The notes under the pieces were generated by a model. The model saw only the letters and a program-made list of their open reading frames with translations. It made no database searches and was not told where the DNA came from. The translations under genes and the position numbers were made by a program. Shown in pieces: positions 4,556-23,244 of a DNA stretch of 64,000 bases. The first letter of the stretch is position 1, and every line of letters starts with the position of its first letter. Source of the stretch: Archaeoglobaceae archaeon (lineage in GTDB: Archaea > Halobacteriota > Archaeoglobi > Archaeoglobales > Archaeoglobaceae); contig JALWDS010000001.1 in NCBI GenBank assembly GCA_027036775.1, forward strand, positions 62,001 to 126,000, read 5' to 3'.

Positions 4556-4740
<185 letters not shown>

Positions 4741-6709: not shown

Positions 6710-6721
6710 TTCAACCACTTT

Positions 6722-7060: not shown

Positions 7061-7446
7061 TCGTCCTTGATACAAGCTTTCTAATCGACTACGTTAAAGG
7101 ATTGGATAAAACAAGGGATTTAATACATGGTAAGTATGTAGTTACAACGGTTATATCGTATCACGAGATAATGGCTGGTGTAAAGATAGCCAAAGCTAAG
7201 AGAGAAGAGAAAATTTTTAGAAAGTTTTTCTCTGAACTAAAAATTTTAAATTTTGACTTGAAATCCGCTGAAGTGTCAAGCGAAATAGCATCCAAGCTCT
7301 CCGCAATCGGGAGGTCTGTTAACGTTATGGATATTCTCATAGCTGGAATTGCTATATCTAATGGTGCAGATGCCATAGTTACTGCGGATAAAGACTTTCT
7401 TGAAATAGCCAAGGTATCGAACTTAGACGTCATAATCTACCGATGA
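7057..7446 (+). CDS. vapC: VapC-type PIN-domain ribonuclease toxin
   Basis: The 129-residue protein has the PIN fold signature: an N-terminal acid motif VLDTSFLIDYVKG, a conserved Glu in SYHEIMAG, and a C-terminal acidic cluster around VMDILIAG and VTADKDFLEIA. These acidic residues bind Mg2+ in VapC toxins, which cleave tRNA or rRNA. All expected acidic positions are present, so it looks active. It directly follows its antitoxin and converges on the adenine deaminase gene with a 2-bp gap. Confidence 0.9.
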   Translation: MIVLDTSFLIDYVKGLDKTRDLIHGKYVVTTVISYHEIMAGVKIAKAKREEKIFRKFFSELKILNFDLKSAEVSSEIASKLSAIGRSVNVMDILIAGIAISNGADAIVTADKDFLEIAKVSNLDVIIYR

Positions 7447-7448
7447 AT

Positions 7449-9125: not shown

Positions 9126-9160
9126 GGAGATAAATTGAACGTAAAGACTAAAACTTATCG

Positions 9161-9748
9161 CTAACAATCCTTTAAAACTTCCTCAACAACTGACCTTTCA
9201 ACCTTCAAATTGAACTTCTCCTTCAACTTCCTAACGATTTCTTCAACATCTTCCTTTTCATCGAGCTTGGCTATCAAATCTTTAACGTCCTCATACAAAC
9301 TCCAAGGATAAACAATCCAAGCCCACCTCTCCATCTCCCTCGCATAGTAGTCTGGAACGAACTTTGAGGTGTGCTTAAAGTCGATCACCGCAGTTTTAAC
9401 TTCCTTAGCCCCTTTCTCTTTAACGTGCTTTGCAACGATCTCAACTGTCTCGCCAGTATCCGCAACGTCATCAACAATCAACACACTTTTTCCACTTAAA
9501 TCTACGGTTAAAGGCTGGGTTATCTTTGCCTTCCCAGTTACGGTCGCAACTATACCCCAATGCTCCGCTTTAACACTGTAAAGCTCTTTGATGAGTAAGA
9601 AGTCCGCTAAAATTCTTGCTGGAATCCATCCCCCCCTTGCGATGGCAACTATAACGTCTGGCTTAAATTTTGATTCCTTAATTTTCTTTGCAAGCTCTCT
9701 ACAGAGTGCATAGACTTCATCCCAGCTATACTGAACGCACTTGAACAT
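9161..9748 (-). CDS. Purine-type phosphoribosyltransferase (COG2236-like)
   Basis: The 195-residue protein shows the type I phosphoribosyltransferase PRPP motif VLIVDDVADTGET and the upstream segment VIVAIARGGWIPARILADF. Such enzymes attach hypoxanthine, guanine or xanthine to PRPP. Its place just upstream of adenine deaminase, 35 bp away on the same strand, makes hypoxanthine the likely base, giving adenine to hypoxanthine to IMP. The C-terminal tail of about 45 charged residues is longer than the catalytic core needs. The base specificity is inferred, not seen. Confidence 0.85.
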   Translation of the reverse strand: MFKCVQYSWDEVYALCRELAKKIKESKFKPDVIVAIARGGWIPARILADFLLIKELYSVKAEHWGIVATVTGKAKITQPLTVDLSGKSVLIVDDVADTGETVEIVAKHVKEKGAKEVKTAVIDFKHTSKFVPDYYAREMERWAWIVYPWSLYEDVKDLIAKLDEKEDVEEIVRKLKEKFNLKVERSVVEEVLKDC

Positions 9749-9831
9749 CGTTTTTAAAGCTCAAACCAATTTATTTAACTCTTTCCAAGGTTGCAAAAGA
9801 TTTAAAAACCTCGCAAGCCTAATGCGGTTAA

Positions 9832-9906
9832 GCCCGGGTGGTGTAGCCCGGCCCATCATGCGGGCCTGTCGAGCCCGCGACCCGGGTTCAAATCCCGGCC
9901 CGGGCG
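9832..9906 (+). tRNA. tRNA-Asp(GTC), integration target
   Basis: Acceptor stem GCCCGGG (9832-9838) pairs with CCCGGGC (9899-9905), with discriminator G. The anticodon stem CGGGC/GCCCG encloses CTGTCGA, anticodon GTC. The T loop is TTCAAAT. A TATA-like TTTAAAAA lies near 9800-9808. The 3' half from the anticodon loop onward is repeated at 23193-23244, showing that an element integrated here while restoring an intact tRNA gene. Confidence 0.95.
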
Positions 9907-9917
9907 TTTAATACCTT
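9866..9917 (+). repeat. attL, 52-bp core repeat inside tRNA-Asp
   Basis: The 52 bp from the anticodon loop of tRNA-Asp through 11 bp past the gene are identical to 23193-23244. This is the left attachment site of the integrated element. Tyrosine integrases of archaeal elements commonly recombine at the anticodon loop and carry the tRNA 3' half in attP. Confidence 0.93.
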
Positions 9918-9948
9918 AACAAATTGAAAAGTTAAAAGGGTTTCGATC

Positions 9949-10170
9949 ATGCCAAGCTTGGAAGGTCTAAGAATTGGAGAAAGAATGTTTGAGAGATATG
10001 TTAGGTTGAAACAGCTATTAAAACGTCCAGACCTTGATCCTGAGGTTAAAAGGGAAATTGAGGAATTCTTGAAGGTTTTTGACGAATACCTTGAGTTCAT
10101 TGGCAAAAACGTCAGAGAAACTTGCAAAATATTGGGTGTTGAGATAAATCTCTCCCCGCCGAAAATATAA
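9949..10170 (+). CDS. Small helical protein between att site and integrase (element A)
   Basis: The 73-residue protein is mostly charged helix (MFERYVRLKQLL, EEFLKVFDEYLEFIGKNV). It has a recognisable relative at 16634-16831 in element B, which shares the pattern DPEVK-EEFL-FDEYLEF, so selection has kept it. Both copies lie between the att site and the integrase, the usual place of a recombination directionality factor, but no DNA-binding motif is evident. Function is not known. Confidence 0.6.
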   Translation: MPSLEGLRIGERMFERYVRLKQLLKRPDLDPEVKREIEEFLKVFDEYLEFIGKNVRETCKILGVEINLSPPKI

Positions 10171-10185
10171 CTCAATTTCTATAAA

Positions 10186-10416
10186 GTCTCAGAATCAGTC
10201 TCATTTCTATCGGTGGTAGCGAAAAAGTGAGACTGCAAAAAATTCGTTAAACGCAATATTAATCTTCAAGTGATTCTTAAAGATTTGACACACTATTACA
10301 ACTGCTTTGAGCCGATCAGACTATTAACAATTCGAAAAAAGCTAAAGAATTTAAAAGAGCGATCTCTTATCTTGATGGAATTCCTATTGCCAACGTAGGA
10401 GTCCCATTTAGTCTCA
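10186..10416. promoter_or_regulatory. GTCTCA repeats between att and integrase A (possible integrase arm sites)
   Basis: The hexamer GTCTCA occurs at 10186, 10198 and 10411, and its complement TGAGAC at 10228. The same hexamer is repeated six times in the corresponding gap of element B. Apart from these the 240-bp gap is A/T-rich and holds no gene. Repeats next to an att site are often arm-type sites for integrase or its cofactor. Confidence 0.45.
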
Positions 10417-11349
10417 CCTAAAAACGATTTTTGACAATTCCTTGGATATCCGCTTATATTCCTCATCAGCCAACTGTAATAGCTCTAAATAGTTGTCCGC
10501 CTCGACTGAGAACTTTATTTCTCTCCTTCTCCCAAGAATGAAGTTTCTAACATCCTTGTCAACCTTTAACCTAACGAGAAGGTTGTTGAACCACTTGCGG
10601 ATATACTTGGGTGAGACAGTCCTTCCAGATTCGGTTTTGTAATTTATCGAATCCTTGACGTTGTAGTCGATTTTCATCCTCTTAAGCTGTTTTGCCAGCC
10701 AATCGGGTAGATAAATCCAAAATCCTTCCTTAAAGCCCTCTGAAAGATGAGAAATCTCATATCTCGCAAATCCTTCCTTGAAAACCAGAAACTTGGGATC
10801 GAATTCATTGAGCATTTTAACGATGTGACTGAGCCTTGCACCGCTGAAAAGCAAAATCAAGGCTATTAGGTATTTTTCCTCGCTTAACTTGGATTTGAAA
10901 TGTTCGAAAGCTTCTCTTATGTCTTCATCCGTTGGAATCATCTTATCAGGCTTGCCTTTCCTAATTTCCGCAACTCTCCTTATTCTGTTTGCGGTCTTTG
11001 GGTCGATGAGTTCCTTTTCTTCAAGGAAGTTTACGAGGTTTCTGATTGCTTTAGCGGTGTTATTCGTCGGATTCCTTCGATAGAGGCTCGTTAAGGACTC
11101 AAAAGTTACCTCTCCCAATTCCTTAAGTTTGTTTAGGTATCTTTCCGCCGTTTCCTCGCTGATTTTGGATTTAAGCCATCTCTCAAAATCAGATTTAACT
11201 TCCTTGTAGCTAAGGGGCTTGGAAATTGTCAAAGATTCCCTACCCGTTATGTATTCGAAGAGTTTTACCTCTAAAAACGTTCTGATGTCAATTTTCATTT
11301 CAATGGCTTTGCTGTAAAGGGTGTCGTCGATCTCAATCTGGAGGAGCAT
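10414..11349 (-). CDS. int: Archaeal tyrosine integrase (Phage_integr_3 type), element A
   Basis: The 311-residue protein is a tyrosine recombinase of the archaeal virus/plasmid class. The catalytic core has LLFSGARLSHIVKML (first Arg), VSPKYIRKWFNNLL, NFILGRRREIK and the nucleophile Tyr in ADNYLELL. The N-terminal 45 or so residues are encoded inside the 1.64-kb repeat and equal those of integrase B, while the middle section differs strongly and the last 70 residues are again alike. It is intact and would act at the tRNA-Asp site. It lies about 500 bp from attL. Confidence 0.88.
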   Translation of the reverse strand: MLLQIEIDDTLYSKAIEMKIDIRTFLEVKLFEYITGRESLTISKPLSYKEVKSDFERWLKSKISEETAERYLNKLKELGEVTFESLTSLYRRNPTNNTAKAIRNLVNFLEEKELIDPKTANRIRRVAEIRKGKPDKMIPTDEDIREAFEHFKSKLSEEKYLIALILLFSGARLSHIVKMLNEFDPKFLVFKEGFARYEISHLSEGFKEGFWIYLPDWLAKQLKRMKIDYNVKDSINYKTESGRTVSPKYIRKWFNNLLVRLKVDKDVRNFILGRRREIKFSVEADNYLELLQLADEEYKRISKELSKIVFR

Positions 11350-11449
11350 CTCCTCCTTGAATCCATTACAATCTAATGATTAAATATGGTCGGGTGGGGG
11401 GTGGGGGAGGTTGGGGGTTCTTATGGACTTATGGACAAAAAGGAAAAAA

Positions 11450-11809
11450 TTAGGCGTAATCTGCTGGATTGATTGCGTATGCTACATCTATTTCGAGTGT
11501 CTCTACTTTCTTCTCAAGCCTTTTTATGCGTTCTTCAAGTTCCTTCGTTTGCTTTGTCTTGGTTCTTGTCTCCACCTCTGTTTGAGTTCCCACCACTTGA
11601 AGAACTGCAACGATGTGCTTGCATGCGAAGTTCACATCATCGGAGTTCTTTAGGAAATGCGGGCAGTTGCAGAGGAATCTATATCCGTTCTGGACAACGC
11701 AGTATTGCTTTGGTTTTCCGCTCGTGCTGTCCATTGATAGCACTATCCATTTTCCTTCTCCCATCTGCCAGACCAAAAACCTCTCCTTTCCGACTTTTGC
11801 CCCGCTCAT
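11450..11809 (-). CDS. SWIM zinc-finger-like protein with coiled-coil tail (copy 1)
   Basis: The 119-residue protein has C47-x-C49-x13-C63-x-H65, the CxCx(n)CxH signature of SWIM zinc fingers, in FLCNCPHF and FACKHIVAVL. The tail from about residue 85 (KTKQTKELEERIKRLEKKVETLEI) forms a heptad pattern of a coiled coil and would oligomerise. SWIM domains bind DNA or proteins, so a role in copy control, replication or segregation is possible but not shown. The gene is transcribed with the integrase. It is identical to the copy at 18158-18517. Confidence 0.75.
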   Translation of the reverse strand: MSGAKVGKERFLVWQMGEGKWIVLSMDSTSGKPKQYCVVQNGYRFLCNCPHFLKNSDDVNFACKHIVAVLQVVGTQTEVETRTKTKQTKELEERIKRLEKKVETLEIDVAYAINPADYA

Positions 11810-12146
11810 GAGCTGTTAGTCGTCGTTTTGCTCTTATTTTTTCCAAGCGGAAGCTGAATTATTTCCTTATTTCCTTTTTTGGAAGCCCAGCCCTCTCTGG
11901 GGGTTCGGAGCGTAGCGGAGAACCCCCTACTTCTCGGGCAGAACTGTTTAGGTTTGGCTTAACTAATTGGGCGTTGCTTGGCGAGGGCTGGGCTTTCTTT
12001 ATTTCTTTTAACATTGTAAGATTGCTTCCGCTGTCCCGAAGGGGGAAAAATTAAGTTGCAAAACGATGCAAGCGATTGAGCGGGAAAATCGGAAAGGAGA
12101 GGTTTCGATTTGGCAGAAGAGGAGAGGAGAAATTTAGCTTAGATTG

Positions 12147-12169
12147 TTATTAACCATGACGGTTAATAA
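12147..12169. promoter_or_regulatory. Palindromic operator-like site 1
   Basis: TTATTAACC-N5-GGTTAATAA is a perfect 23-bp palindrome. The same sequence recurs at 12339-12361, in copy 2 at 18855-18877 and 19047-19069, and near-perfectly at 15173-15195. Probably it is a binding site of one of the element's winged-helix proteins. Confidence 0.6.
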
Positions 12170-12322
12170 GAGGCTCGTCTATGTGAGGGGCCGTTGAGGA
12201 TGAGCGGGGCAAAAGTCGGAGCTTAAGCTCCTCTACCTCAACGGCCCCGAAAGGATGTTTTTCACTAAGCTAATTTAACTTTTCTGCAACGGGCTTGAAC
12301 GAACGGACAAACCTTTTCCGGA

Positions 12323-12361
12323 TTATTAACCGTGAAGGTTATTAACCACTACGGTTAATAA
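12323..12361. promoter_or_regulatory. Two overlapping palindromic operator-like sites upstream of the 96-residue gene
   Basis: An imperfect site at 12323-12345 overlaps a perfect TTATTAACC-N5-GGTTAATAA at 12339-12361, with centres 16 bp apart. The second ends 4 bp before the ATG at 12366, so a bound regulator would block transcription start or translation of the rightward operon. Confidence 0.6.
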
Positions 12362-12365
12362 GTTC

Positions 12366-12656
12366 ATGGCATTGGTAAACTGGCTTAAGATGTTAAGGGC
12401 TTTGCAGAAGGCAGAAGAGATTAAAAGGAGCTCCGACTACTGCAAAAAGATGAAGGAAAGGGGAGTTTGCAGTTGTAGAGTTGGAGAGCTCTGTCAAAGG
12501 GCTTTAGCCATAGCTACTGATCTTTCGGACAACGCAATCAAGAATATGATCTTGAGGCTCGAACTATACAAGGAGGAGCTTGAGGACTTTCCTTTTGAGA
12601 TAAGAGTTATCAAGGCTGGTGGAAACGTTCCAAGGAAGTTCATAAGGCTAAGGTGA
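12366..12656 (+). CDS. Small Cys-containing protein of unknown function (copy 1)
   Basis: The 96-residue protein is basic and helical, with a Cys cluster C-S-C-R-V-G-E-L-C in its middle and another Cys at about residue 26, which could bind a metal. I do not recognise a family. It is the first gene of a rightward operon and its stop overlaps the GTG start of the membrane protein by 4 bp. The copy at 19074-19364 is identical. Operator-like palindromes lie directly upstream. Confidence 0.7.
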   Translation: MALVNWLKMLRALQKAEEIKRSSDYCKKMKERGVCSCRVGELCQRALAIATDLSDNAIKNMILRLELYKEELEDFPFEIRVIKAGGNVPRKFIRLR

Positions 12657-13498
12657 TCCCCTTGAAGTGGATAACGCATATCGCTCTGGCTTTCTTTCTC
12701 GTTAAAGTCGTTGAGATTGCTTTAATGGTCGATCTGCTTGATTCTTACTGGGCTTACGCAATCGTAAGCTTGTTTGCGGTTTTGCCAGACTTTGATTACC
12801 TCGTAGTGATTAAACATAGAACTTGGACTCATACCCTTTGGTTCACCTTGATCGCTTTGATATTGCTTCCGTTCGGTTGGAAATTTGCTTTAGCTGGATT
12901 CATAGCGATCTTAAGCCATTTGGTTGGAGATATGATGACTCATTCGGGTGTCAAGTTGTTGTTTCCGTTTCGTGAAACGGTCTTCTATCTCATACCTCCT
13001 CGTTGGAGGTTCAGAACGGGAAGTAGTGCGGAGTTCATGGTTTTGGGTTTGCTGATTGTTGGATCGATTGTCGTTTCCGCTGTTACGGTTCAAAGCGACG
13101 TGGAAAAGTTATTTACATTATCGAAGGATCATTTCGTAACGGTTAGACTCTCAACGTTTGAGAACGGAGCAAGGTATGATTACGATCTCGTAGAAATCGT
13201 TTGGACTGACGGGAAGAATAAAATAGGGTTCATAGAAAACGGCTATCTTCACAAGATAAGCAGAGATCAGATTTTGAAGGCTGAGATCGTCAAGGTGGTT
13301 CCAGCCAACAAGGTTCCAGATTCAAGATACCTCAAGATCAAGGACTTGAGGAGGGCGATCTGGAGGGAAAGGGTTATCGTGGCTTGGGAGGACGACGGAG
13401 TCCGCTCCGAGTTTGTCGGAACGGGAAAGGAGCTTTACGAGAAGTTAAAGGAATGGGAGGATTGCATCATCGGGGTTTGGTATTATGAGACTCGATGA
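12653..13498 (+). CDS. DUF457/YdjM-like membrane protein (element B)
   Basis: The 281-residue protein begins with about four transmembrane helices carrying the metal-dependent membrane hydrolase pattern: PDFDYLV, HRTWTHTLWF, SHLVGDMMTHSGVKLLFPF. These His and Asp residues are those conserved in the DUF457/YdjM family of putative membrane hydrolases. After a last helix near residue 140 there is a soluble domain of about 120 residues unlike the family's usual end. Start is GTG at 12653, coupled to the preceding gene. The element A counterpart (19361-20227) is identical for the first 50 residues and then diverges. Confidence 0.75.
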   Translation: MIPLKWITHIALAFFLVKVVEIALMVDLLDSYWAYAIVSLFAVLPDFDYLVVIKHRTWTHTLWFTLIALILLPFGWKFALAGFIAILSHLVGDMMTHSGVKLLFPFRETVFYLIPPRWRFRTGSSAEFMVLGLLIVGSIVVSAVTVQSDVEKLFTLSKDHFVTVRLSTFENGARYDYDLVEIVWTDGKNKIGFIENGYLHKISRDQILKAEIVKVVPANKVPDSRYLKIKDLRRAIWRERVIVAWEDDGVRSEFVGTGKELYEKLKEWEDCIIGVWYYETR

Positions 13499-14342
13499 TT
13501 CGAGTCTTGAAATTCTTCAGCATCTGGACGGTGAAGAGGTAGTTCCGCATCACCTTTACAGATCAAACGGTTTCAAATTCTCAAGAGCTACGTTTTATCG
13601 AAGGCTTGAACTTCTCAAACAGTTGGGATTAATTGAATGGAGGACGGGGAGGGCTAAACTCACAGAAAAGGGCTTAAAGCTTCGATCCTTGTTTAATGAA
13701 CCTGTAACGGACCATACGAAAGAGGTTTCTCAAGTCGATTTCAAGGAAAAGGAGGAGGGGTTTTCGTGTGAACCGTTACAGGAGATCCAACATGAAAAGG
13801 ACGGTAAAAAGGATTTCAAGCTTTACGAAGCCGAGAGGTTGAAGGATCAGATCGATGACAGCTTTATCTACGTCGATTATCCTCAAACTTCGTTTATTCT
13901 GACGATTTTAATGGGAGTTGCGGGGATCGAGGAGAAGGCTAAATCTAACGTCGAGAAGTTCAAACTCTTGAAGGAAGCTGATTTTGAGGTTAAACTTGCG
14001 ATAAATCACTTCGAAAATTCCCCGAAACAGCTTTTGATCTTTCTCGAGGAACTCATCAAGGAGGGGAAGATCAAAGCCCTCTACGTCGGAGTTAAAAACG
14101 AGAGAAGGGCTTTAAGCAATAAAAAGCTCGTCGAGTTCCTAACTAATCACGATTTCGAGAATGAGAGGTTTAAGCTTCCGAAGGAAAGCGTTACCCTCTT
14201 TCCGATTTTCTTAATCTCGATCATCGGAATCATTTTAATCTTGGCCCTTAGGAGCGGTTACGAGCATGCGGGAATCTTGAGCGTTATGATGATCGTTTAC
14301 TTCTTCCGAAGTATGCTGTTTCGGGAGTTGAGGGAGCTATAA
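13485..14342 (+). CDS. Winged-helix protein with C-terminal membrane helices (element B)
   Basis: In this 285-residue protein, residues 1-70 form a winged helix (SSLEILQHLDGEEVVPHHLYR, FSRATFYRRLELLKQLGLIEW, LTEKGLKLRSLF). A linker of low conservation follows, then a conserved domain starting KLYEAERLKDQIDDSFIYVDY. Two hydrophobic helices close the protein (PIFLISIIGIILILAL, ILSVMMIVYFF). A membrane-anchored DNA-binding protein could tie the element's DNA to the membrane for segregation or sense an envelope signal. The start overlaps the upstream gene by 14 bp. The relative at 20214-21077 is about 85-90% alike by eye. Confidence 0.75.
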   Translation: MRLDDSSLEILQHLDGEEVVPHHLYRSNGFKFSRATFYRRLELLKQLGLIEWRTGRAKLTEKGLKLRSLFNEPVTDHTKEVSQVDFKEKEEGFSCEPLQEIQHEKDGKKDFKLYEAERLKDQIDDSFIYVDYPQTSFILTILMGVAGIEEKAKSNVEKFKLLKEADFEVKLAINHFENSPKQLLIFLEELIKEGKIKALYVGVKNERRALSNKKLVEFLTNHDFENERFKLPKESVTLFPIFLISIIGIILILALRSGYEHAGILSVMMIVYFFRSMLFRELREL

Positions 14343-14621
14343 ACGGTCGTAAATTCTTTCTCTTTTGTCGATTTTTAAGACTGCAATGACTTTATTTTCC
14401 CAATCGATGTAAACGATGATTCTGTAAAGTTTTCCGACTCTGATTCTGTGAAATTCCGTCCCTTCGAGCTTTTTTATGTCGAGGGAAAAAGGATTTTCCC
14501 TTAACTCCCTTAAGGCTGATAAAATTCTTTCTCTATCCTTTTTCGAGAGCTTGTCAAGAAATTTCTCCGCTTTCTTACTCAGTCGAACTCTGAAACTTTC
14601 TTTCGACTTCTTCAAGGTCAA
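14337..14621 (-). CDS. RelE/ParE-family toxin (element B)
   Basis: The 94-residue frame matches RelE-type toxins: FRVRLSKKAEKFLDKLSKKDRERI, then NPFSLDIKKLEGTEFHRIRVGKLYRIIVYID and a C-terminal DKRERIYDRL. Such toxins cleave mRNA in the ribosome or poison gyrase. There is no ATG; TTG codons at 14621 or 14615 are the likely start, translated in overlap with the antitoxin gene. The element A homologue at 21072-21326 starts with ATG at the corresponding place. Confidence 0.8.
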   Translation of the reverse strand: MTLKKSKESFRVRLSKKAEKFLDKLSKKDRERILSALRELRENPFSLDIKKLEGTEFHRIRVGKLYRIIVYIDWENKVIAVLKIDKRERIYDRL

Positions 14622-14787
14622 CCATCTCCAACCTTCCCTCTTTGTATGCTTTCAAGTCTTCCTCCAATTCTTTAAGCTCTTCCTCGCTTAACTCGTCGAA
14701 AAGCTCCTCTTCTATCTTTCTCAGTCTTTTATCGATTTCATCAAGCTTGCTTTCAATCCTCCTCAGAATTTCAACAACTTCGCTCAT
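14575..14787 (-). CDS. Antitoxin partner of RelE-type toxin (element B)
   Basis: The protein is 70 residues from the ATG at 14787: MSEVVEILRRIESKLDEIDK, a long coiled-coil helix, then an acidic stretch (ELFDELSEEELKELEEDL). It precedes and overlaps the toxin gene, as in relBE modules. The counterpart at 21316-21531 is alike over its first 45 residues and differs in the toxin-binding tail, as does the toxin. Confidence 0.75.
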   Translation of the reverse strand: MSEVVEILRRIESKLDEIDKRLRKIEEELFDELSEEELKELEEDLKAYKEGRLEMVDLEEVERKFQSSTE

Positions 14788-14822
14788 TACTTTCAAATTT
14801 GTAAAGTTGGATAAAAATGTTG

Positions 14823-14927
14823 CTACTTCTTTCGATCTCTGAGCTTATCGACTATTAGGACGTAAAGGAAGGCAAAGGGTGTTACAATCCAGATTAAGAG
14901 CTTAATCCATCTCGGAAAGCGGATCAT
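14823..14927 (-). CDS. Conserved 34-residue single-helix membrane micro-protein (element B)
   Basis: The frame reads MIRFPRWIKLLIWIVTPFAF and ends LRDRKK. It has one membrane helix with basic residues on both ends. The element A copy at 21567-21668 (33 residues) differs mainly at the N-terminus, while the reading frame and stop are kept. It overlaps the end of the 93-residue gene by 26 bp and lies just upstream of the antitoxin gene. Function is unknown. Confidence 0.6.
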   Translation of the reverse strand: MIRFPRWIKLLIWIVTPFAFLYVLIVDKLRDRKK

Positions 14928-15183
14928 AGCCCATTCTCAACGAGACGTAATGATTGACCAATCGAGCTACCGCATTTGGCCCCGGTAATCCCGAAACGTC
15001 TAAGGCTATGGCGTTTATTCTCCTTACCGCCTCGATTTCCTCGTAATTCTTGTTTAATTCGTCCCATATCTTCAGAAAGAGCTTTGACATCACCACGGGA
15101 ATAGGTAAGCCCTCCAATTCGGCGTTAAGCTCCTCGTATATCTTCTCAACCTCTTGATCCATTTCTACCACCTTATTAACCAC
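14902..15183 (-). CDS. Small acidic helical protein, only in element B
   Basis: The 93-residue protein (MVNKVVEMDQEVEKIYEELN; LPIPVVMSKLFLKIWDEL; GPNAVARLVNHYVSLRMGYD) has no family I recognise and no counterpart in element A, where the corresponding gap is about 70 bp. It overlaps the upstream wHTH gene by 8 bp. A palindromic operator-like site (15173-15195) lies across its start, suggesting separate control. Confidence 0.6.
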   Translation of the reverse strand: MVNKVVEMDQEVEKIYEELNAELEGLPIPVVMSKLFLKIWDELNKNYEEIEAVRRINAIALDVSGLPGPNAVARLVNHYVSLRMGYDPLSEMD

Positions 15184-15195
15184 TACGGTTAATCA
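15173..15195. promoter_or_regulatory. Palindromic operator-like site 3
   Basis: TTATTAACC-N5-GGTTAATCA matches the palindromes at 12147 and 12339 at all but one arm position. It covers the start of the 93-residue gene and the end of the wHTH gene, so one regulator could control both divergent sides of element B. Confidence 0.55.
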
Positions 15196-15475
15196 AATCC
15201 TCCCATTCCTCAGCCCATTTCCTTAGCTTTCGAGCAAATTCCAAGCTTAGAACATAGCCTTCTTCCTTTTTCTCGATCATCCCAGCTTTGAGCATCTTAG
15301 TGATGAGATAGTAAACTACATGACCATATTTGTTAGCCAATTCTTGTGGTCTTCTTGGAGTTTTCAAAGCTTTGAGCAGTTCTGGAAAAACTCTCTTTTC
15401 TTTCTCTCCGAATTCAAGAATTTCAAGGAGAGGTTTATTTTTCAGCTTCATCCTTGCGGTTCTTTCGTAGCTCAC
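15176..15475 (-). CDS. Winged-helix regulator (element B)
   Basis: The 99-residue protein has an N-terminal region KLKNKPLLEILEFGEKEKRVF and a winged helix (RPQELANKYGHVVYYLITKMLKAGMIEKKEEGYVLSLEF). The C-terminus ARKLRKWAEEWEDLINR is almost the same as in the element A relative (21742-22062), while the recognition helix differs. It is coupled to the upstream membrane wHTH gene by ATGA-type overlap. It is a candidate binder of the TTATTAACC palindromes. Confidence 0.75.
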   Translation of the reverse strand: MSYERTARMKLKNKPLLEILEFGEKEKRVFPELLKALKTPRRPQELANKYGHVVYYLITKMLKAGMIEKKEEGYVLSLEFARKLRKWAEEWEDLINRSG

Positions 15476-16587
15476 GTTATCACCTCCTTAACGATTAGAA
15501 GGGCTATTAGACCGTAAAGCAGAATCTGACCAATTAAGAAAAGGCGATAGTTCTTCCCGAACTCGGATAAAGTTAATCTCATCTCTTTAAAGCCATTTCC
15601 AAGTTCCTTAACGGTTTTATACATCTCTCCGGCGGTTTTGAACATCTCTCCAGCGGTTGAAGCTACGTTGTCGGTCATTTTTATGTGCTTGGCTATGTTT
15701 TCAGCTAAAGCATTGTGCAAAATCATTAGGTTTTCAAATGCTTGGTTATAGGCTGAATTATTGGATAAAAGAGCAGATTTCACGTCCTTTACATCCTTCC
15801 AAGTTTCATAAACGTATTCGGGCATTAGTAATCTTCTCTCTGCATGTTTTGAATCGTTCGTTTCGATTTCCCTTCCTTTGCTTTCATCGACCCATATCCT
15901 TGCCTCTTGCGAAGTTTCGTCTCCTTTAACGTCTTTGGCTTTTCTGTCGAGATAGACGACGGTTCCGGGGTCAATGGGCTCATCGGTTTCGAAGGCGTAT
16001 TCTCCATAGATTAGGCTCACGTTCAGCCAGTCCTCATCCAGATAAATCCCTTCGAGCTGGAGAATCCTTCGAATCTTGTTAAACGTGTTGTGGATTGTGA
16101 GATATGCGGATGCCATTGAAGAAGCATAGAATTCTGGGAGATGGAGTATTGCAGTTACGTTTTCAGCTAAATTAACCTGCAAAGCTGCATCTATCGGCTT
16201 TATGTTATGCTTTCGGCAGATTTCGGCGATCGAGATGTAATAAGCCTCCCAGTTGTTCAAATTCGCTTTCTTTCCTAATTCCACGACTTTGTGAAGGTTT
16301 ACCTCATGCAAAAGACCGACGATCTTTATATTGTGGACTCTCGCCTTTTCCAAGCCTTGATTTTCAATTAGCCTTTTTCCGAGCGGTGTTATGCTGTAAA
16401 CTGCTGGTTTACTCCCCGTTTTTTTGATTAAGCCCTTCTCCTCTAGTTCAGACAAAAGTCTGTAAACCGTTGCCCTTGAAATTCCAAGCGATTTCATTAT
16501 TTGGTTTGCGGTCATAGGTTTCTTGATGAGGGACTTGAGAAGTTCCTCCCGAGCCCGTCGCCCGGGTTCAAATCCCGGCGGCCGCAT
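15472..16587 (-). CDS. Winged-helix protein with coiled coil and C-terminal membrane helix; 5' end lies in the att site (element B)
   Basis: From the ATG at 16587 the protein is 371 residues. The first 14 codons are translated from the tRNA-Gly 3' sequence (MRPPGFEPGRRARE). Then comes a winged helix (KPMTANQIMKSLGISRATVYRLLSELEEKGLI), a middle domain of about 200 residues shared with 22047-23159, a coiled-coil stretch and a final helix LIGQILLYGLIALLIVKEVIT. An internal Met in KKPMTAN is an alternative start. The att overlap means that integration through this site would change the gene's upstream sequence. Confidence 0.7.
   Translation of the reverse strand: MRPPGFEPGRRAREELLKSLIKKPMTANQIMKSLGISRATVYRLLSELEEKGLIKKTGSKPAVYSITPLGKRLIENQGLEKARVHNIKIVGLLHEVNLHKVVELGKKANLNNWEAYYISIAEICRKHNIKPIDAALQVNLAENVTAILHLPEFYASSMASAYLTIHNTFNKIRRILQLEGIYLDEDWLNVSLIYGEYAFETDEPIDPGTVVYLDRKAKDVKGDETSQEARIWVDESKGREIETNDSKHAERRLLMPEYVYETWKDVKDVKSALLSNNSAYNQAFENLMILHNALAENIAKHIKMTDNVASTAGEMFKTAGEMYKTVKELGNGFKEMRLTLSEFGKNYRLFLIGQILLYGLIALLIVKEVIT
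16546..16586 (+). repeat. 3' half of a tRNA-Gly(CCC)-like gene, probable attP of element B
   Basis: From the anticodon loop CTCCCGA through stem GCCCGT, T arm CCGGG-TTCAAAT-CCCGG and acceptor CGGCCGC plus A, this is the 3' half of a tRNA. The preceding bases do not form the 5' half. The loop gives anticodon CCC. Its acceptor differs from tRNA-Asp, so it is not a copy of attL. It lies between the wHTH-membrane gene and the small helical gene, the same relative position as the tRNA-Asp att in element A. Confidence 0.75.
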
Positions 16588-16633
16588 ATTCCTATCAAAA
16601 TTTGAAACTATAAAACAATTTGGGTTTGAAAAC

Positions 16634-16831
16634 ATGAGGAAATTTGACGAATTGTCAGATATCGAAAGGAGATTGATCGAAAAATGGTATAAGGTTAAAG
16701 ATTTGGCGGAGAAGTATCCTGATCCGGAGGTTAGGACTATTCTGATGGAATTCCTCGTCGCTTTGGATGATTGGTTTGCCAAATTCCGTAAGGATCTCAA
16801 GGATATCAAGTCCTTGGTCATCAGACCCTAA
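16634..16831 (+). CDS. Small helical protein between att site and integrase (element B)
   Basis: The 65-residue protein (MRKFDELSDIERRLIEKWYK; DPEVRTILMEFLVALDDWFAKF) is the relative of 9949-10170. I start it at the ATG at 16634 because the longer open frame only runs through the att sequence. Position beside att suggests a link to integration, but no motif proves it. Confidence 0.6.
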   Translation: MRKFDELSDIERRLIEKWYKVKDLAEKYPDPEVRTILMEFLVALDDWFAKFRKDLKDIKSLVIRP

Positions 16832-16860
16832 TCTTTCGGTCTCGGATATACCGAGAATCG

Positions 16861-17112
16861 TGAGACAGCGTTTTATCGTAGTCTTAAATAATTTAGATCA
16901 AGCGGGATGATGAACAACAACCGCTTCGATAAACTCGATCTCATATAAACGCCATAGTTAAGTTTGAGATAGCAAAAAGAAGGGTTAAATGACTTTCCAG
17001 CATGTCGCATCTATACCTCTCAATCATGTAGTTGTCTCATGTTGTCTCACGGGTTGTCTCACCTACCGAGAAAAAATGAGACTATACGATCTCGTGATTC
17101 CTTTTTGTCTCA
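16861..17112. promoter_or_regulatory. GTCTCA repeats between att and integrase B
   Basis: GTCTCA occurs at 17034, 17044, 17056 and 17107, and TGAGAC at 16861 and 17077. Three of them follow each other at 10-12 bp spacing, about one helical turn. Element A has four at the same place. The 287-bp gap holds no gene. Confidence 0.5.
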
Positions 17113-17118
17113 CCATGT

Positions 17119-18057
17119 CTAATCAAACTTCTTTATCGGAAAACTCTTAAGAACTCTTTTGTATTCCTCATCGGCTAACTGTAGGAGTTCCAAATAGTGA
17201 TCAGCCTCGACACTTGACTTGATTTCTCCCGTTCTCCCGAGAATGAAGTTTCTAACATCCTTGTCCACTCTCAATTTGACGAGGAGGTTGTTGAACCACT
17301 TGCGGATATACTTGGGTGAGACCTTCTTTCCAGATGTCGTCTTGTAATTGAGAGCGGATTTGACCCCGCTCTCGTTGATCTCCATCCTCCTAAGTCTTTT
17401 AGATAACCATGACGGCATGTAAACGTAAAAGGCTTGTTTCGTCCCTTTAGAGAGATGTTCGATCTCGTATCTCGCAATTTCTCCCTTAATCGTCAGATAT
17501 CTTGGGTCGAACTCCTTGAGCATCCTTAGGACGTGCCTCATCCTCGCTCCGCTGAACAGCAAAATCAGAGTTAAGAGCCTGTATTCCTCTTTCAGACTCA
17601 AAAAATAGGAAAGAGCCTCTTTGATTTCTTCGTTGGTCGGAATTTGCCTATCCGCTTTACTTTTCCTTATCGGAATACGTTTCTTGATCTCTTGGCTGAA
17701 TTGAGGAGAGATTAGCGATCTCTCTTCCAAAAAGTTCAAAAGGTTTCGAACCGCTTTCGAGAAGTTGTTCTTGTCCCCGATTTTCTCGTAGATTTCCGAT
17801 ATTCTCTCCGCTGAGATTTCATCGACGTTTTCAAGAAGTCGGAGATATTTCCTTGCGGTCTCCTCGCTGATTTTGGATTTGAGCCATCTCTCGAAATCGG
17901 ATTTGATCGCTTGGTAGTGTAGGGGCTTGGAAATGGTCAAAGATTCCCTACCCGTTATGTATTCGAAGAGTTTTACCTCTAAAAACGTTCTGATGTCAAT
18001 TTTCATTTCAATGGCTTTGCTGTAAAGGGTGTCGTCGATCTCAATCTGGAGGAGCAT
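17119..18057 (-). CDS. int: Archaeal tyrosine integrase (Phage_integr_3 type), element B
   Basis: The 312-residue protein has the same fold as integrase A. Catalytic segments are LLFSGARMRHVLRML, VSPKYIRKWFNNLL, NFILGRTGEIK and Tyr in ADHYLELL. The region from about residue 60 to 230 differs widely from integrase A, while the N-terminal 45 residues are identical and the end is very alike. It would be specific for the tRNA-Gly-type site next to it. It appears intact. Confidence 0.88.
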   Translation of the reverse strand: MLLQIEIDDTLYSKAIEMKIDIRTFLEVKLFEYITGRESLTISKPLHYQAIKSDFERWLKSKISEETARKYLRLLENVDEISAERISEIYEKIGDKNNFSKAVRNLLNFLEERSLISPQFSQEIKKRIPIRKSKADRQIPTNEEIKEALSYFLSLKEEYRLLTLILLFSGARMRHVLRMLKEFDPRYLTIKGEIARYEIEHLSKGTKQAFYVYMPSWLSKRLRRMEINESGVKSALNYKTTSGKKVSPKYIRKWFNNLLVKLRVDKDVRNFILGRTGEIKSSVEADHYLELLQLADEEYKRVLKSFPIKKFD

Positions 18058-18157
18058 CTCCTCCTTGAATCCATTACAATCTAATGATTAAATATGGTCG
18101 GGTGGGGGGTGGGGGAGGTTGGGGGTTCTTATGGACTTATGGACAAAAAGGAAAAAA

Positions 18158-18517
18158 TTAGGCGTAATCTGCTGGATTGATTGCGTATGCTACATCTATT
18201 TCGAGTGTCTCTACTTTCTTCTCAAGCCTTTTTATGCGTTCTTCAAGTTCCTTCGTTTGCTTTGTCTTGGTTCTTGTCTCCACCTCTGTTTGAGTTCCCA
18301 CCACTTGAAGAACTGCAACGATGTGCTTGCATGCGAAGTTCACATCATCGGAGTTCTTTAGGAAATGCGGGCAGTTGCAGAGGAATCTATATCCGTTCTG
18401 GACAACGCAGTATTGCTTTGGTTTTCCGCTCGTGCTGTCCATTGATAGCACTATCCATTTTCCTTCTCCCATCTGCCAGACCAAAAACCTCTCCTTTCCG
18501 ACTTTTGCCCCGCTCAT
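18158..18517 (-). CDS. SWIM zinc-finger-like protein with coiled-coil tail (copy 2)
   Basis: It is identical in all 119 residues to the protein at 11450-11809, with CxCx13CxH at residues 47-65 and a coiled-coil tail. It lies within the long repeat. Confidence 0.75.
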   Translation of the reverse strand: MSGAKVGKERFLVWQMGEGKWIVLSMDSTSGKPKQYCVVQNGYRFLCNCPHFLKNSDDVNFACKHIVAVLQVVGTQTEVETRTKTKQTKELEERIKRLEKKVETLEIDVAYAINPADYA

Positions 18518-19073
18518 GAGCTGTTAGTCGTCGTTTTGCTCTTATTTTTTCCAAGCGGAAGCTGAATTATTTCCTTATTTCCTTTTTTGGAAGCCCAGCC
18601 CTCTCTGGGGGTTCGGAGCGTAGCGGAGAACCCCCTACTTCTCGGGCAGAACTGTTTAGGTTTGGCTTAACTAATTGGGCGTTGCTTGGCGAGGGCTGGG
18701 CTTTCTTTATTTCTTTTAACATTGTAAGATTGCTTCCGCTGTCCCGAAGGGGGAAAAATTAAGTTGCAAAACGATGCAAGCGATTGAGCGGGAAAATCGG
18801 AAAGGAGAGGTTTCGATTTGGCAGAAGAGGAGAGGAGAAATTTAGCTTAGATTGTTATTAACCATGACGGTTAATAAGAGGCTCGTCTATGTGAGGGGCC
18901 GTTGAGGATGAGCGGGGCAAAAGTCGGAGCTTAAGCTCCTCTACCTCAACGGCCCCGAAAGGATGTTTTTCACTAAGCTAATTTAACTTTTCTGCAACGG
19001 GCTTGAACGAACGGACAAACCTTTTCCGGATTATTAACCGTGAAGGTTATTAACCACTACGGTTAATAAGTTC
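18518..19073. other. Structured non-coding region (copy 2)
   Basis: This is identical to 11810-12365. It includes both 13-bp inverted repeats (18591-18603/18691-18703 and 18895-18907/18944-18956) and palindromes at 18855-18877 and 19031-19069. No gene is visible. Confidence 0.55.
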
Positions 19074-19364
19074 ATGGCATTGGTAAACTGGCTTAAGATG
19101 TTAAGGGCTTTGCAGAAGGCAGAAGAGATTAAAAGGAGCTCCGACTACTGCAAAAAGATGAAGGAAAGGGGAGTTTGCAGTTGTAGAGTTGGAGAGCTCT
19201 GTCAAAGGGCTTTAGCCATAGCTACTGATCTTTCGGACAACGCAATCAAGAATATGATCTTGAGGCTCGAACTATACAAGGAGGAGCTTGAGGACTTTCC
19301 TTTTGAGATAAGAGTTATCAAGGCTGGTGGAAACGTTCCAAGGAAGTTCATAAGGCTAAGGTGA
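19074..19364 (+). CDS. Small Cys-containing protein of unknown function (copy 2)
   Basis: The 96 residues are identical to 12366-12656, and the stop overlaps the following GTG in the same way. In element A it leads the operon of the DUF457-like and wHTH-membrane proteins. Confidence 0.7.
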   Translation: MALVNWLKMLRALQKAEEIKRSSDYCKKMKERGVCSCRVGELCQRALAIATDLSDNAIKNMILRLELYKEELEDFPFEIRVIKAGGNVPRKFIRLR

Positions 19365-20227
19365 TCCCCTTGAAGTGGATAACGCATATCGCTCTGGCTT
19401 TCTTTCTCGTTAAAGTCGTTGAGATTGCTTTAATGGTCGATCTGCTTGATTCTTACTGGGCTTACGCAATCGTAAGCTTGTTTGCGGTTTTGCCAGACTT
19501 TGATTACCTCGTAGGGATTAAACATAGAACTTGGACTCATACCCTTTGGTTCACCTTGATCGCTTTGATATTGTTGCCTTTTAGCTGGAAGTTGGCTTTA
19601 ATCGGTTGGATTTCAATCTTAAGCCATCTCTTTGGAGACATGATGACCCATTCGGGTGTCAAGCTCCTATACCCTTATAAGATGACTGTCTTTTATCTCG
19701 TTCCTCCTCGTTGGAGGTTTAGGGTCGGCTCTTCTGCGGAGTTTATGGTCTTAGGTTTGCTGATTGTTGGATCGATCTTGATCGGGTCGATCTCGGCTCA
19801 AAGCGACGTCGAGAAACTTTTTGAATTATCGAAGGATCACGTCGTAGCGGTCTCACTCTCAACATTTGAGAACGGAGCAGTTCATAACTACGAGAACATT
19901 GAAATCGTATGGACTGACGGGAAAAGCGAATTAGGGTTCATTCAAAACGGGAAACTCAAAATTATCGAGAAGGATCAAATTTTGAGTACCAATATTTTGA
20001 AAGCGGAGAGGACAGATAAAACGGCAAACTCAATATTTGTTCGAGTAAAGGATTTGAGAAAGGCGATCTGGAGGCATAGGATCATAACGGGCTATGAGGA
20101 TGATGGAGTAGCCTTCAAGTTTTCTGGAACAGGGCTTGATTTGTATCTCAAGCTAAACGGTAAAAAGCTTGAAAAAGAAGGAAAAGGAGACTACATCATC
20201 AAGGTTTGGTATTATGAGGCTCGATGA
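19361..20227 (+). CDS. DUF457/YdjM-like membrane protein (element A)
   Basis: The 288-residue protein has the same helices and His/Asp signature (HRTWTHTLWF, SHLFGDMMTHSGVKLL) as 12653-13498. Its first 50 residues are encoded in the repeat and are identical but for one change (V to G in DYLVxIKH). Beyond that the soluble domain differs at many positions but keeps its length. Divergence is higher in the soluble part, so that part may face a variable partner. Confidence 0.75.
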   Translation: MIPLKWITHIALAFFLVKVVEIALMVDLLDSYWAYAIVSLFAVLPDFDYLVGIKHRTWTHTLWFTLIALILLPFSWKLALIGWISILSHLFGDMMTHSGVKLLYPYKMTVFYLVPPRWRFRVGSSAEFMVLGLLIVGSILIGSISAQSDVEKLFELSKDHVVAVSLSTFENGAVHNYENIEIVWTDGKSELGFIQNGKLKIIEKDQILSTNILKAERTDKTANSIFVRVKDLRKAIWRHRIITGYEDDGVAFKFSGTGLDLYLKLNGKKLEKEGKGDYIIKVWYYEAR

Positions 20228-21077
20228 CCAAGCCCTCCAGATCATAACTCATCTGGATCAAGAGGAAGTCGTCCCTCATCACTTGTATCGTTCAAACGGT
20301 TTCAAATTCTCAAGAGCTACGTTTTATCGAAGGCTTGAACTTCTCAAACAGTTGGGATTAATTGAATGGAGAACGGGGAGGGCTAAACTCACGGAAAGGG
20401 GCTTAAAGCTTCGATCCTTGTTTAGTGAACCTGTAACGGACCATACAAAAAACGGCTCTGACAACTCCAATGACGAAAAGGAGGAAGATAAGGGGTTTTC
20501 GTGTGAACCGTTACAGGGGATCCAAAATGAAAAGGACGGTAAAAAGGACTTCAGGCTCTACGAAGCTGAGAGGTTGAAGGATCAGATCGATGACAGCTTT
20601 ATATACGTCGATTATCCTCAAACGAGCTTTATCTTGACGATTTTAATGGGAGTTGCGGGGATCGAGGAGAAGGCTAAATCTAACGTCGAGAAGTTCAAGC
20701 TTTTGAAAGAAACGGATTTCAGCGTTAAGCTTGCGATAAATCACTTCGAAAATTCCCCAAAACAATTGCTGATTTTCCTTGAGGAACTTATCAAGGAGGG
20801 GAAGATCAAAGCCCTCTACGTCGGAGTTAAAAACGAGAGAAGGGCTTTAAGCAATAAAAAGCTCGTCGAGTTCTTAACTAATCACGATTTCGAGAATGAA
20901 CGTTTCAAACTACCAAAAGAATCGATTACGTTGTTTCCGATCTTCCTAATCTCCGTGATCGGAATAATTCTGATTTTGGCTTTGAGGAGCGGTTACGAGC
21001 ATGCGGGAATCTTGAGCGTTATGATGATCGTTTACTTCTTCAGATCGATGCTCTTCAAGGAGTTGAGGGAGCTATAA
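20214..21077 (+). CDS. Winged-helix protein with C-terminal membrane helices (element A)
   Basis: The protein is 287 residues from the ATG at 20214, which matches the start of 13485-14342 (MRLDD). Winged helix at residues 1-70, linker with a short insertion (NGSDNSNDEKEED), conserved domain and two terminal membrane helices are the same. It overlaps the upstream gene by 14 bp. Confidence 0.75.
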   Translation: MRLDDQALQIITHLDQEEVVPHHLYRSNGFKFSRATFYRRLELLKQLGLIEWRTGRAKLTERGLKLRSLFSEPVTDHTKNGSDNSNDEKEEDKGFSCEPLQGIQNEKDGKKDFRLYEAERLKDQIDDSFIYVDYPQTSFILTILMGVAGIEEKAKSNVEKFKLLKETDFSVKLAINHFENSPKQLLIFLEELIKEGKIKALYVGVKNERRALSNKKLVEFLTNHDFENERFKLPKESITLFPIFLISVIGIILILALRSGYEHAGILSVMMIVYFFRSMLFKELREL

Positions 21078-21326
21078 ACGGTCGTAAATTCTTTCTCTTT
21101 TGTCCACCTTTGCAACCCAAACTATGCGATTCTCAAAATCGATTTCTATTATGATTCTGAACTTTCCGACTCTGATCCTGTAAATGTGATCCTCAATCTT
21201 TTTGATGTCAAGGGAAAAGGGATCTTCGAGCTTCTGAATTTCCTTGTAAATTCGAACTCTGTCCTTTTTTTCGAGCTTCTTGATTTCCTTAGCCGCTCGA
21301 TCCGATGTTATGACTTTAAACTTCAT
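21072..21326 (-). CDS. RelE-family toxin (element A)
   Basis: The 84-residue protein starts with ATG (MKFKVITSDRAAKEIKKLEK) and has DPFSLDIKKIEDHIYRIRVGKFRIIIEIDF and the C-terminal DKRERIYDRL shared with 14337-14621. The N-terminal two thirds differ from the element B toxin. The gene overlaps its antitoxin by 11 bp. Confidence 0.82.
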   Translation of the reverse strand: MKFKVITSDRAAKEIKKLEKKDRVRIYKEIQKLEDPFSLDIKKIEDHIYRIRVGKFRIIIEIDFENRIVWVAKVDKRERIYDRL

Positions 21327-21531
21327 CTTCGATATCGAGTTCCTTTTTCAGCTCCTCAAGGGTGTAGGTCTTCATCTTTCCTGTTTTGCAGGCTTCGAGT
21401 ATCTCCTTAACCTCTTTAAGTTCTTCCTCGCTTAATTCGTCGAAAAGCTCTTCTTCTATCCTCTTAAGCCTTTTATCCATCTCCTCAAGCTTGTTTTCAA
21501 TCCTCCTCAAAATTTCAACAACTTCGCTCAT
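21316..21531 (-). CDS. Antitoxin partner of RelE-type toxin (element A)
   Basis: The protein is 71 residues from the ATG at 21531: MSEVVEILRRIENKLEEMDK, coiled-coil helix, acidic middle and a distinct tail (KTGKMKTYTLEELKKELDIE). The shared N-terminal half and different tail match the pattern of its toxin. Confidence 0.75.
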   Translation of the reverse strand: MSEVVEILRRIENKLEEMDKRLKRIEEELFDELSEEELKEVKEILEACKTGKMKTYTLEELKKELDIEDEV

Positions 21532-21566
21532 TACTTTCAAATTTGTAAAGTTGGATAAAAATCTTG

Positions 21567-21668
21567 CTACTTCTTTCGATCTCTGAGCTTATCGACTATT
21601 AGGACGTAAAGGAGGGCAAAGGGTGTTACAATCCAGATTAGGAGCTTAATCCACTTTGAATGGATCAT
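21567..21668 (-). CDS. Conserved 33-residue membrane micro-protein (element A)
   Basis: It reads MIHSKWIKLLIWIVTPFALL and ends LRDRKK, matching the element B micro-protein at 14823-14927 except at the N-terminus. Nucleotide changes between copies preserve the frame. Confidence 0.6.
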   Translation of the reverse strand: MIHSKWIKLLIWIVTPFALLYVLIVDKLRDRKK

Positions 21669-21741
21669 GGTATCACCAAGCTTTCAATCCTCTTTTCATT
21701 GAGAGATGGTGATGGCATGCGAATCAAAATTGAGTTAGAGA

Positions 21742-22062
21742 TCAGCATGAGGGAGCTTTTGATTCTCTTTCTATTTTTTTATTGTTGATCAGATTTTCCC
21801 ATTCCCCAGCCCATTTCCTTAGTTTTCGAGCAAATTCCAAGCTTAGAACGTAGCCATTTTCCGTTTTCTCGATCATTCCAGCTTCTCTCATCTTTCTGAG
21901 GACATGGTAAACTCTCTCGCCGAAAATCTCTTCAAGTTCCTTAGCTTTCTTTGGTTCTTTCATCATTATCAACTTTTCAAAGATATCCCTCTCTTTTCCT
22001 CTGAACGTTAGAGCCTCTAAGAGCGGATTTTTGCTCAAATCAAGCTTCAAACTCCTTTCCAT
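21742..22062 (-). CDS. Winged-helix regulator (element A)
   Basis: The 106-residue protein has KNPLLEALTFRGKERDIFEK followed by a winged helix (KKAKELEEIFGERVYHVLRKMREAGMIEKTENGYVLSLEF) and the tail ARKLRKWAGEWENLI shared with 15176-15475. It overlaps the start region of the membrane wHTH gene by 16 bp. Confidence 0.75.
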   Translation of the reverse strand: MERSLKLDLSKNPLLEALTFRGKERDIFEKLIMMKEPKKAKELEEIFGERVYHVLRKMREAGMIEKTENGYVLSLEFARKLRKWAGEWENLINNKKIERESKAPSC

Positions 22063-23159
22063 ATTATCACCAACATCAAAACGATGAGTCCAATCAATCC
22101 AATCATCAAAACGATGTTCATAACGATTAATCTGTCATTAATCGATTTCTGGGATTTGCAGGCTTCCGTAAGCCATTTTACCGATTCCGAAATTTCTTTC
22201 GTCATTCCAGTAACGGATGAAACGAGTTGAATGTGTTCCATGATGTTCTGGCTTAGAGCCTTCTGGCTTTCCGTGAAACTCGTTATCATTCCGTTCCACG
22301 AGTTGAAAGTTCGGTTAAATTGGTTCATCGCCGTGATAAACAGCTTTAGAGTTTGATTGAAATCTCTGTTGAATCCTTGAAGGATATTATGGATTTCCCG
22401 AACTCGCATTAACGTTTCTTCTGTCCATATCGGTTCCATTACTCTCTTATGGGCATAGAGGCTATCGTTCGTTTCAAGCTCCTTGTATCCCAAGCTTTCA
22501 TCTATCCAAGCCTTGGCGTTGTAATCCATTTCTTCACCTTTCGGATTGAGGGCTTTGTAACCCAAATCGACCTCTATCGGTTCACTCGGATCGTTTGGTG
22601 GAAGTTCCCAAGCGAATTCATGATATTTGACTTTGAAGCTGTAATCGAGCCATTCTTCTTCTGTTATTAACCCTTCAAGCTCTAAAGCCCTTCTACACTT
22701 CGCTACCATGTTTTGAATTGTTAAGAATGCGGAATGAACATCGTTAGCTTGGAATTCTGGGAGATGCAAAACGATCGTAACCTTTTCAGCTATGTTCACT
22801 TGAGCCTTTGCTGTAACTCCGTATTTCGAGAGATCAAGATAGTAGCAGTCCCAATTTTTGACGTTAACCTCTTTTCCCTTTTCTCTTGCAACGAACAGAT
22901 TAACATCTAAAGCTTGAAGGACTACCTTGACATCGTGAACCCTTATCTCTCCATGCTTTAAGTCAAATATCCTCCTACCCAAGATCGTTAATCCGTATTC
23001 TCCGTTTTCCTTCGAGATTAATCCTTTTTCTTCGAGTTTCCTAAGAATTCGATACAAACTCTGTTTGGGAATCCCCGTTTTTTCTGAAATCTCCCTTGCC
23101 CTTCGTTTTCCACTCAGTAGAACATCCAAAACCTTTAACTCCCTTTCCGACAATTCCAT
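22047..23159 (-). CDS. Winged-helix protein with coiled coil and C-terminal membrane helix (element A)
   Basis: The 370-residue protein starts MELSERELKVLDVLLSGKRR. A winged helix follows (EISEKTGIPKQSLYRILRKLEEKGLI), then a domain with AEKVTIVLHLPEFQANDVHSAFLTIQN shared with 15472-16587, a helical stretch and a terminal membrane helix (IVLMIGLIGLIVLMLVIIW). Unlike the element B form, its start lies clear of the att site, 34 bp away. A role in tethering or sensing is inferred only from the domain order. Confidence 0.72.
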   Translation of the reverse strand: MELSERELKVLDVLLSGKRRAREISEKTGIPKQSLYRILRKLEEKGLISKENGEYGLTILGRRIFDLKHGEIRVHDVKVVLQALDVNLFVAREKGKEVNVKNWDCYYLDLSKYGVTAKAQVNIAEKVTIVLHLPEFQANDVHSAFLTIQNMVAKCRRALELEGLITEEEWLDYSFKVKYHEFAWELPPNDPSEPIEVDLGYKALNPKGEEMDYNAKAWIDESLGYKELETNDSLYAHKRVMEPIWTEETLMRVREIHNILQGFNRDFNQTLKLFITAMNQFNRTFNSWNGMITSFTESQKALSQNIMEHIQLVSSVTGMTKEISESVKWLTEACKSQKSINDRLIVMNIVLMIGLIGLIVLMLVIIWKGV

Positions 23160-23192
23160 TTAGACACCCTCCGATTGCAGGTTGTTGCGGTT

Positions 23193-23244
23193 CTGTCGAG
23201 CCCGCGACCCGGGTTCAAATCCCGGCCCGGGCGTTTAATACCTT
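23193..23244 (+). repeat. attR, 52-bp repeat of tRNA-Asp 3' half
   Basis: It is identical to 9866-9917 and starts at the anticodon loop. There is no 5' half, so it is the displaced chromosomal or element-borne copy after integration. Its last base is the first base of the hdrA stop codon on the minus strand. Before insertion tRNA-Asp and hdrA were therefore convergent with an 11-bp gap. Confidence 0.93.

Follow-up and report, generated by a model that had tools for sequence, protein, structure and literature searches.

Two related integrative elements with different tRNA targets assembled as one block in an Archaeoglobaceae genome

Organization of the tRNA-Asp block

A 64,000-nt stretch of the genome of an Archaeoglobaceae archaeon (contig JALWDS010000001.1; hereafter the window, in whose positions coordinates are given, the genome itself being labelled G000) contains two small, related mobile DNA elements of this hot-vent host, A and B, that are assembled as one spliced block at a tRNA-Asp gene. 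These are very probably two separate elements that met by homology within a shared core. The tRNA-Asp(GTC) gene (9832-9906, + strand; identified by ARAGORN) is the target of A, and a 52-bp attachment (att) site, attL, lies at 9866-9917 (+), with the identical 52 bp present in the tRNA-Asp gene of a related genome, G020. An exact second copy, attR, is at 23193-23244 (+), such that the two Asp sites are 100% identical over 52 bp and 13,327 bp apart. Between them is the 3' half of a tRNA-Gly(CCC) gene (16545-16589, +), which is the attP of B and matches all 45 bp of the corresponding segment of the vacant tRNA-Gly gene on contig C44 of the same genome, a match that cannot be due to chance. All three att sites (two Asp and one Gly) are pure on both sides, and there are no Asp/Gly hybrids.

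The shared core is a 1.64-kb direct repeat with copies at 11228-12865 and 17936-19573, offset by 6,708 bp; positions 11228-12806 (1,579 bp) are repeated exactly, followed by a single mismatch and a further 58 bp of exact repeat (12808-12865). It includes the integrase N-terminus, a SWIM gene, non-coding palindromes, orf96, and the start of ydjM. We define A as 9918-11227 together with one core copy and 19574-23244 (6,619 bp, with the Asp att), and B as the inter-repeat unit (6,708 bp, with the Gly attP). A preliminary description of this DNA had noted a 52-bp tRNA-Asp repeat at both ends of the block, two integrases, and a 1.64-kb direct repeat at an offset of exactly 6,708 bp, all of which hold, with both integrase genes being intact, of the PF16795 family, and on the minus strand. 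The internal tRNA-Gly(CCC) half that it placed at 16546-16586 is also present, and extends over the slightly larger interval given above.

Gene content of the two elements

A and B have a common gene order: integrase, SWIM protein, orf96, YdjM-like hydrolase, winged-helix membrane protein, toxin-antitoxin, a small helix-turn-helix (HTH) gene, and an end regulator. At the left end of A is a small open reading frame (ORF) of 73 residues (9949-10170, +) with 97% identity to an ORF beside tRNA-Asp in G020, followed by int1 (10414-11349, -; PF16795, 1.4e-49), a tyrosine integrase gene whose 97% identical counterpart adjoins tRNA-Asp in G020. The left end of B has a 102-residue frame (16523-16831, +) whose start is 100% identical downstream of the G020 tRNA-Gly and 69% identical in a tRNA-Gly relic in G035, and int2 (17119-18057, -; PF16795, 5.5e-51), the product of which is 66% identical to Int1. 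The R...KXXR...Y signature is present in both integrases (R172, K248-Y-I-R251, and Y287), and int1 is not split by integration.

Within the core are the gene for the 119-residue SWIM zinc-finger protein (11450-11809, -; PF04434), three palindromic TTATTAACC-N5-GGTTAATAA-like sites (12146-12362) that may be a candidate operator or origin, and orf96 (12366-12656, +), encoding a Cys-rich winged-helix-like protein with homologues in G002 and at two additional loci of G000. The core may have a regulatory or replication role. The two own-genome orf96 homologues (~75%; L019 3800-4090 and L021 5557-5847) hint at further elements of this kind.

To the right of the core, the B versions are a YdjM-like membrane hydrolase gene extending beyond the core (12653-13498, +; PF04307, 1.8e-13), a winged-helix membrane protein gene (13485-14342, +; 91% to the A version, weak match to PF22194), and a ParE/RelE-type toxin with its antitoxin (14337-14796, -; PF05016, 2e-8). 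The A versions are the hydrolase (19361-20227, +; 72% to the B version), the homologous winged-helix membrane protein (20169-21077, +), and a RelE/RelB-type toxin-antitoxin pair (21072-21540, -) whose nearest relic is beside tRNA-Asp in G011. Each unit ends with a winged-helix regulator gene, HTH370 in A (22047-23159, -; PF01978, 4.1e-13) and HTH365/371 in B (15472-16587, -). The ATG and first codons of the B regulator are within the Gly att core, with the N-terminal sequence (RPPGFEPG...) being antisense to the tRNA-Gly 3' half and in frame both in the window (16545-16587) and at locus L109 (6748-6789) of a second genome. Integration would therefore retain the gene and change its upstream sequence, and we can only guess that it acts as a promoter switch for the regulator. 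Fold searches with the predicted structures of HTH365 and orf96 (predicted local distance difference test scores of 69.5 and 77.6) returned winged-helix matches only and none with a replication function, and a bacterial promoter scan was uninformative, the DNA being archaeal.

Relationship between the two elements

Outside of the core, A and B are homologous along most of both units, with 40-95% identity in 150-bp windows, and their proteins range from ~35% (end regulator) up to 91% identity (winged-helix membrane protein). Judged from these comparisons, they are diverged homologues. The possibility that one element had recently been duplicated in tandem was considered and rejected, as up to half of the bases differ outside of the core. 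The edges of the core are abrupt, and the neighbouring 150-bp windows are only 59% identical at the left and 73% identical at the right; an identical block with such edges resembles a recent exchange or conversion tract within an old divergence. The two elements are also 95% identical over another short patch, at the start of the antitoxin (14764-14913 and 21508-21657), beside windows of 75% and 45%.

The left end of A differs from that in G020 at 37 positions in 9907-11138 (3%) and at 17 positions in the 171 bp of 11139-11309 (10%). This jump, the breakpoint of which was picked after seeing the data, fits a recombination edge near 11,150. Thirty of the 39 differences in the integrase gene are at third codon positions, and int1 thus appears to be under purifying selection.

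Related elements in other genomes

The two left ends are present at separate tRNA genes in G020, the Archaeoglobaceae metagenome-assembled genome S012_59 (WAKM01; contig WAKM01000025.1), which was the sole match in a scan of genome contigs. On G020 contig C25 the left end of A directly follows tRNA-Asp, with 96% identity over 1,403 bp, and on contig C39 the left end of B directly follows tRNA-Gly(CCC), where 105 of 105 bases correspond to 16545-16649, including 63 past the tRNA. The leftmost segment of the block thus belongs with tRNA-Asp, and the segment to the right of the internal att belongs with tRNA-Gly.

More distant relatives extend these associations. G026 has a ~21-kb element in tRNA-Gly that ends in an HTH365-like regulator abutting attR; this regulator is 56% identical to that of B and 33% to that of A, and its frame runs through att as in the window. 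A 16.3-kb element in tRNA-Gly in G017 has the same order. In the stretches read, both the G026 and G017 relatives are single units with one integrase of the family and one att pair. The tRNA-Gly relic in G035 contains orf102-type and HTH365-type pieces, and in G011 a relic adjoining tRNA-Asp contains an A-type RelB together with orf106. The near-complete genome of the same genus, G002, has a Gly att pair 23.5 kb apart (C1 714155-714197 and 737651-737693; L116, L059) and, close to the right-hand site, a related integrase, which together mark an apparent large element in tRNA-Gly. The tRNA-Gly(CCC) gene looks like a shared target in the family, in G002 as well as in G007, G017, G026, and G035. 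A 7.5-kb contig of G035 (C44 in that genome) was checked as a possible circle, and terminal overlap is absent.

Searches of IMG/VR with the integrase alignment, wHTH285, orf96, and two exact junction patterns gave no matches. PLSDB contained no close DNA match and no relative of orf96, and INPHARED no relative of orf96 or YdjM; only distant integrases were found.

State of the tRNA-Gly attachment site

The tRNA-Gly gene of G000 is whole and unoccupied, with a DUF460 gene beginning ~60 bp downstream, and the attP of B is thus unused. The internal att is flanked on both sides by B sequence and is therefore an attP, and since G020, G026, and G035 tie both of these flanks to tRNA-Gly, it is undisturbed. 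Both the division of the block into A, at tRNA-Asp, and B, with its own tRNA-Gly attP, and the intact and unused state of that attP had been put forward in the preliminary description; the former is supported by G020, G026, G035, and G011, and the latter by the 45-bp match to the vacant gene and the B sequence on either side.

Assembly of the block and alternative configurations

Six pairs of G000 contig ends overlap by exactly 127 bp, and the assembly looks like the product of a k=127 short-read (de Bruijn) graph. The assembler SPAdes leaves contig-end overlaps of size k and walks simple loops. The 45-bp Gly att is shorter than this k-mer and its junction should have direct read support, as should both Asp junctions, for which the att is 52 bp. 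Neither k=127 nor an ordinary read pair spans the core repeat. When compared in silico, the k-mer multiset of the window is the same as that of integrated A alone plus a free circular B for all k values tested, the largest being 1,580, and the assembly therefore cannot separate these two states. Within the own-genome sequence compared, 127-mers recur only in the core and in a tandem on contig C8 (L065, G000:C8:1-20000, 86-17575), which has two exact head-to-tail copies with an offset of 8,724 and 8,766 bp exact. The C8 element is of the SSV type, encodes a Prim-Pol protein, and has its att in tRNA-Lys(CTT); its 127-mers equal those of one integrated copy plus a circle. An exact tandem of 8,766 bp is beyond short-read resolution, such that at least one loop has probably been written out in this assembly, and the C8 tandem is most likely one integrated copy and an excised circle that the assembler has written as a tandem.

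Two end states of the same exchange could account for the assembled block. In one, the predominant form is a cointegrate physically present in the chromosome, in which B recombined once into integrated A, or the two fused as plasmids prior to integration by int1, trapping the attP of B; we put its being the dominant state in the cells at just under an even chance. Its order and orientation are those of a Campbell insertion, with a direct repeat at each join, pure att sites, and the att of A outermost, and the att of the guest (B) is intact and unrecombined; the 1.58 kb over which the copies are identical would readily sustain homologous recombination. The one-crossover joining of B to the chromosome proposed in the preliminary description is consistent with the layout of the direct repeats, but the k-mer content of the window equals that of the unlinked state. 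The other end state, to which we give somewhat less than an even chance, leaves A as the only integrated element, with B forming a 6,708-bp circle of its own within the same cells or population, the assembler having followed a path of A-left, core, B, core, and A-right. This requires no joining event and agrees with the 127-bp contig-end overlaps that a k=127 de Bruijn assembly gives, with the equality of k-mers up to k=1,580, and with the loop-like 8,766-bp tandem at tRNA-Lys in the same assembly; however, if int2 works, one might expect a free B to have entered the perfect vacant tRNA-Gly gene in some of the cells, whereas C44 is unbroken there, and no replication gene was recognised in B. 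Given the 1.58 kb of identity, the cointegrate and the combination of A and free B probably interconvert.

Several observations weigh against the scheme as a whole. Linkage across the 1,579-bp repeat is as the assembly draws it, and domain and fold searches recognised no replication initiator in A or B, which makes a stable free B conjectural. In G006 an A-type RelBE is beside tRNA-Gly, so toxin-antitoxin alleles are not strictly tied to att type and inner modules move between att types. Neither a complete A alone nor a complete B alone was present among the genomes found, the G020 contigs ending within both; the preliminary description had suggested looking for each element alone in related genomes, and this succeeds for the left ends at their separate tRNA genes and not for full single elements.

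Two further configurations fare far worse. Units 9907-16586 and 16587-23244 could be the real elements, the second inserted by an integrase at the att of the first, and reuse of one site is known for archaeal elements with tyrosine integrases (PMC6563490). Such a site-specific tandem array predicts an Asp/Gly hybrid att. The purity of every att on either side is strong evidence against simple tandem insertion by an integrase; both flanks of the internal att are moreover tied to tRNA-Gly in G020, G026, and G035, and we regard the array as very improbable. That the block is by design a stable 13.3-kb element of two units, with a pair of att types, agrees with the presence of both units in one contig and with the two intact integrase genes, but is equally hard to credit, as in G020 each left end is at its own tRNA gene on a separate contig, and the relatives in G026 and G017 are single-unit in the stretches read.

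We favour two elements with a common core. By its att anatomy and Type II layout, A was integrated by int1 at tRNA-Asp. B, with its own int2 and an attP that is unrecombined and fits the vacant host gene perfectly, is not integrated at its own site. A module swap or gene conversion has probably made the 1.64-kb core identical in the two elements in recent times. Homologous crossover in the core would then join or release them (A + B <-> cointegrate AB), with the join probably made by host recombination and not by an integrase.

Relationship to known elements

Int1 and Int2 resemble SSV-type (PF16795) integrases in sequence family, in the R...KXXR...Y signature (described for the SSV type in PMC8371274), and in having the att in a tRNA 3' half. 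Unlike the split-gene layout, the att of A is ~500 bp outside of int, and the gene is whole after integration (Type II in PMC8371274). Type I (suicidal) integration was rejected, as att is at 9866-9917, int1 ends at 10414, and the gene is whole. The nearest named integrase is that of AvPV1 (49.8% to Int2), which also targets tRNA-Gly (PMC10919331). AvPV1 is 17.95 kb and has fusogen and spike genes, whereas no virion genes were recognised in A or B, each of 6.6-6.7 kb. A Pleolipoviridae-like provirus was also rejected: there is no ORF of VP4-like-fusogen size other than the end regulators, and Pfam and PHROGs gave no structural family among the proteins scanned; the AvPV1 fusogen was not directly aligned. 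The 16-21-kb tRNA-Gly(CCC) elements of G017 and G026 share with B the arrangement of a tRNA, an int facing it, an HTH365-like regulator towards the other end, and a Gly att pair, but they are two to three times larger than A or B, have one att pair, and differ in most of their cargo.

Archaeal elements are reported to exchange modules through homologous recombination (Redder et al. 2009, as cited in PMC8371274), and they are known to form tandem arrays (PMC6563490). As in those cases, related elements with common modules are present here, with recombination between co-resident copies. Here, however, the two partners target different tRNA genes, and the second att has not been recombined but is an attP that was never used.

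Implications

If real, a cointegrate with a trapped attP is an uncommon configuration. That it is a true cointegrate retaining two working integrase/att systems for different tRNAs, with a perfect vacant attB (tRNA-Gly) elsewhere in the genome, is a tentative and rather doubtful proposition. Were it so, a 13.3-kb circle could enter either tRNA gene, the chromosome could be rearranged by Int2 at the trapped attP, and successive rounds of joining and resolution in the core would be the route by which integrase/att cassettes are swapped. The arrangement also carries a warning for short-read archaeal genomes, in that an integrated element and a free relative sharing an exact block mimic a cointegrate. 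A and B represent a small family of Archaeoglobaceae elements in which related members have an identical core and different integrase/att cassettes, and cointegrate formation through that core would be a concrete route by which archaeal elements could switch tRNA target.

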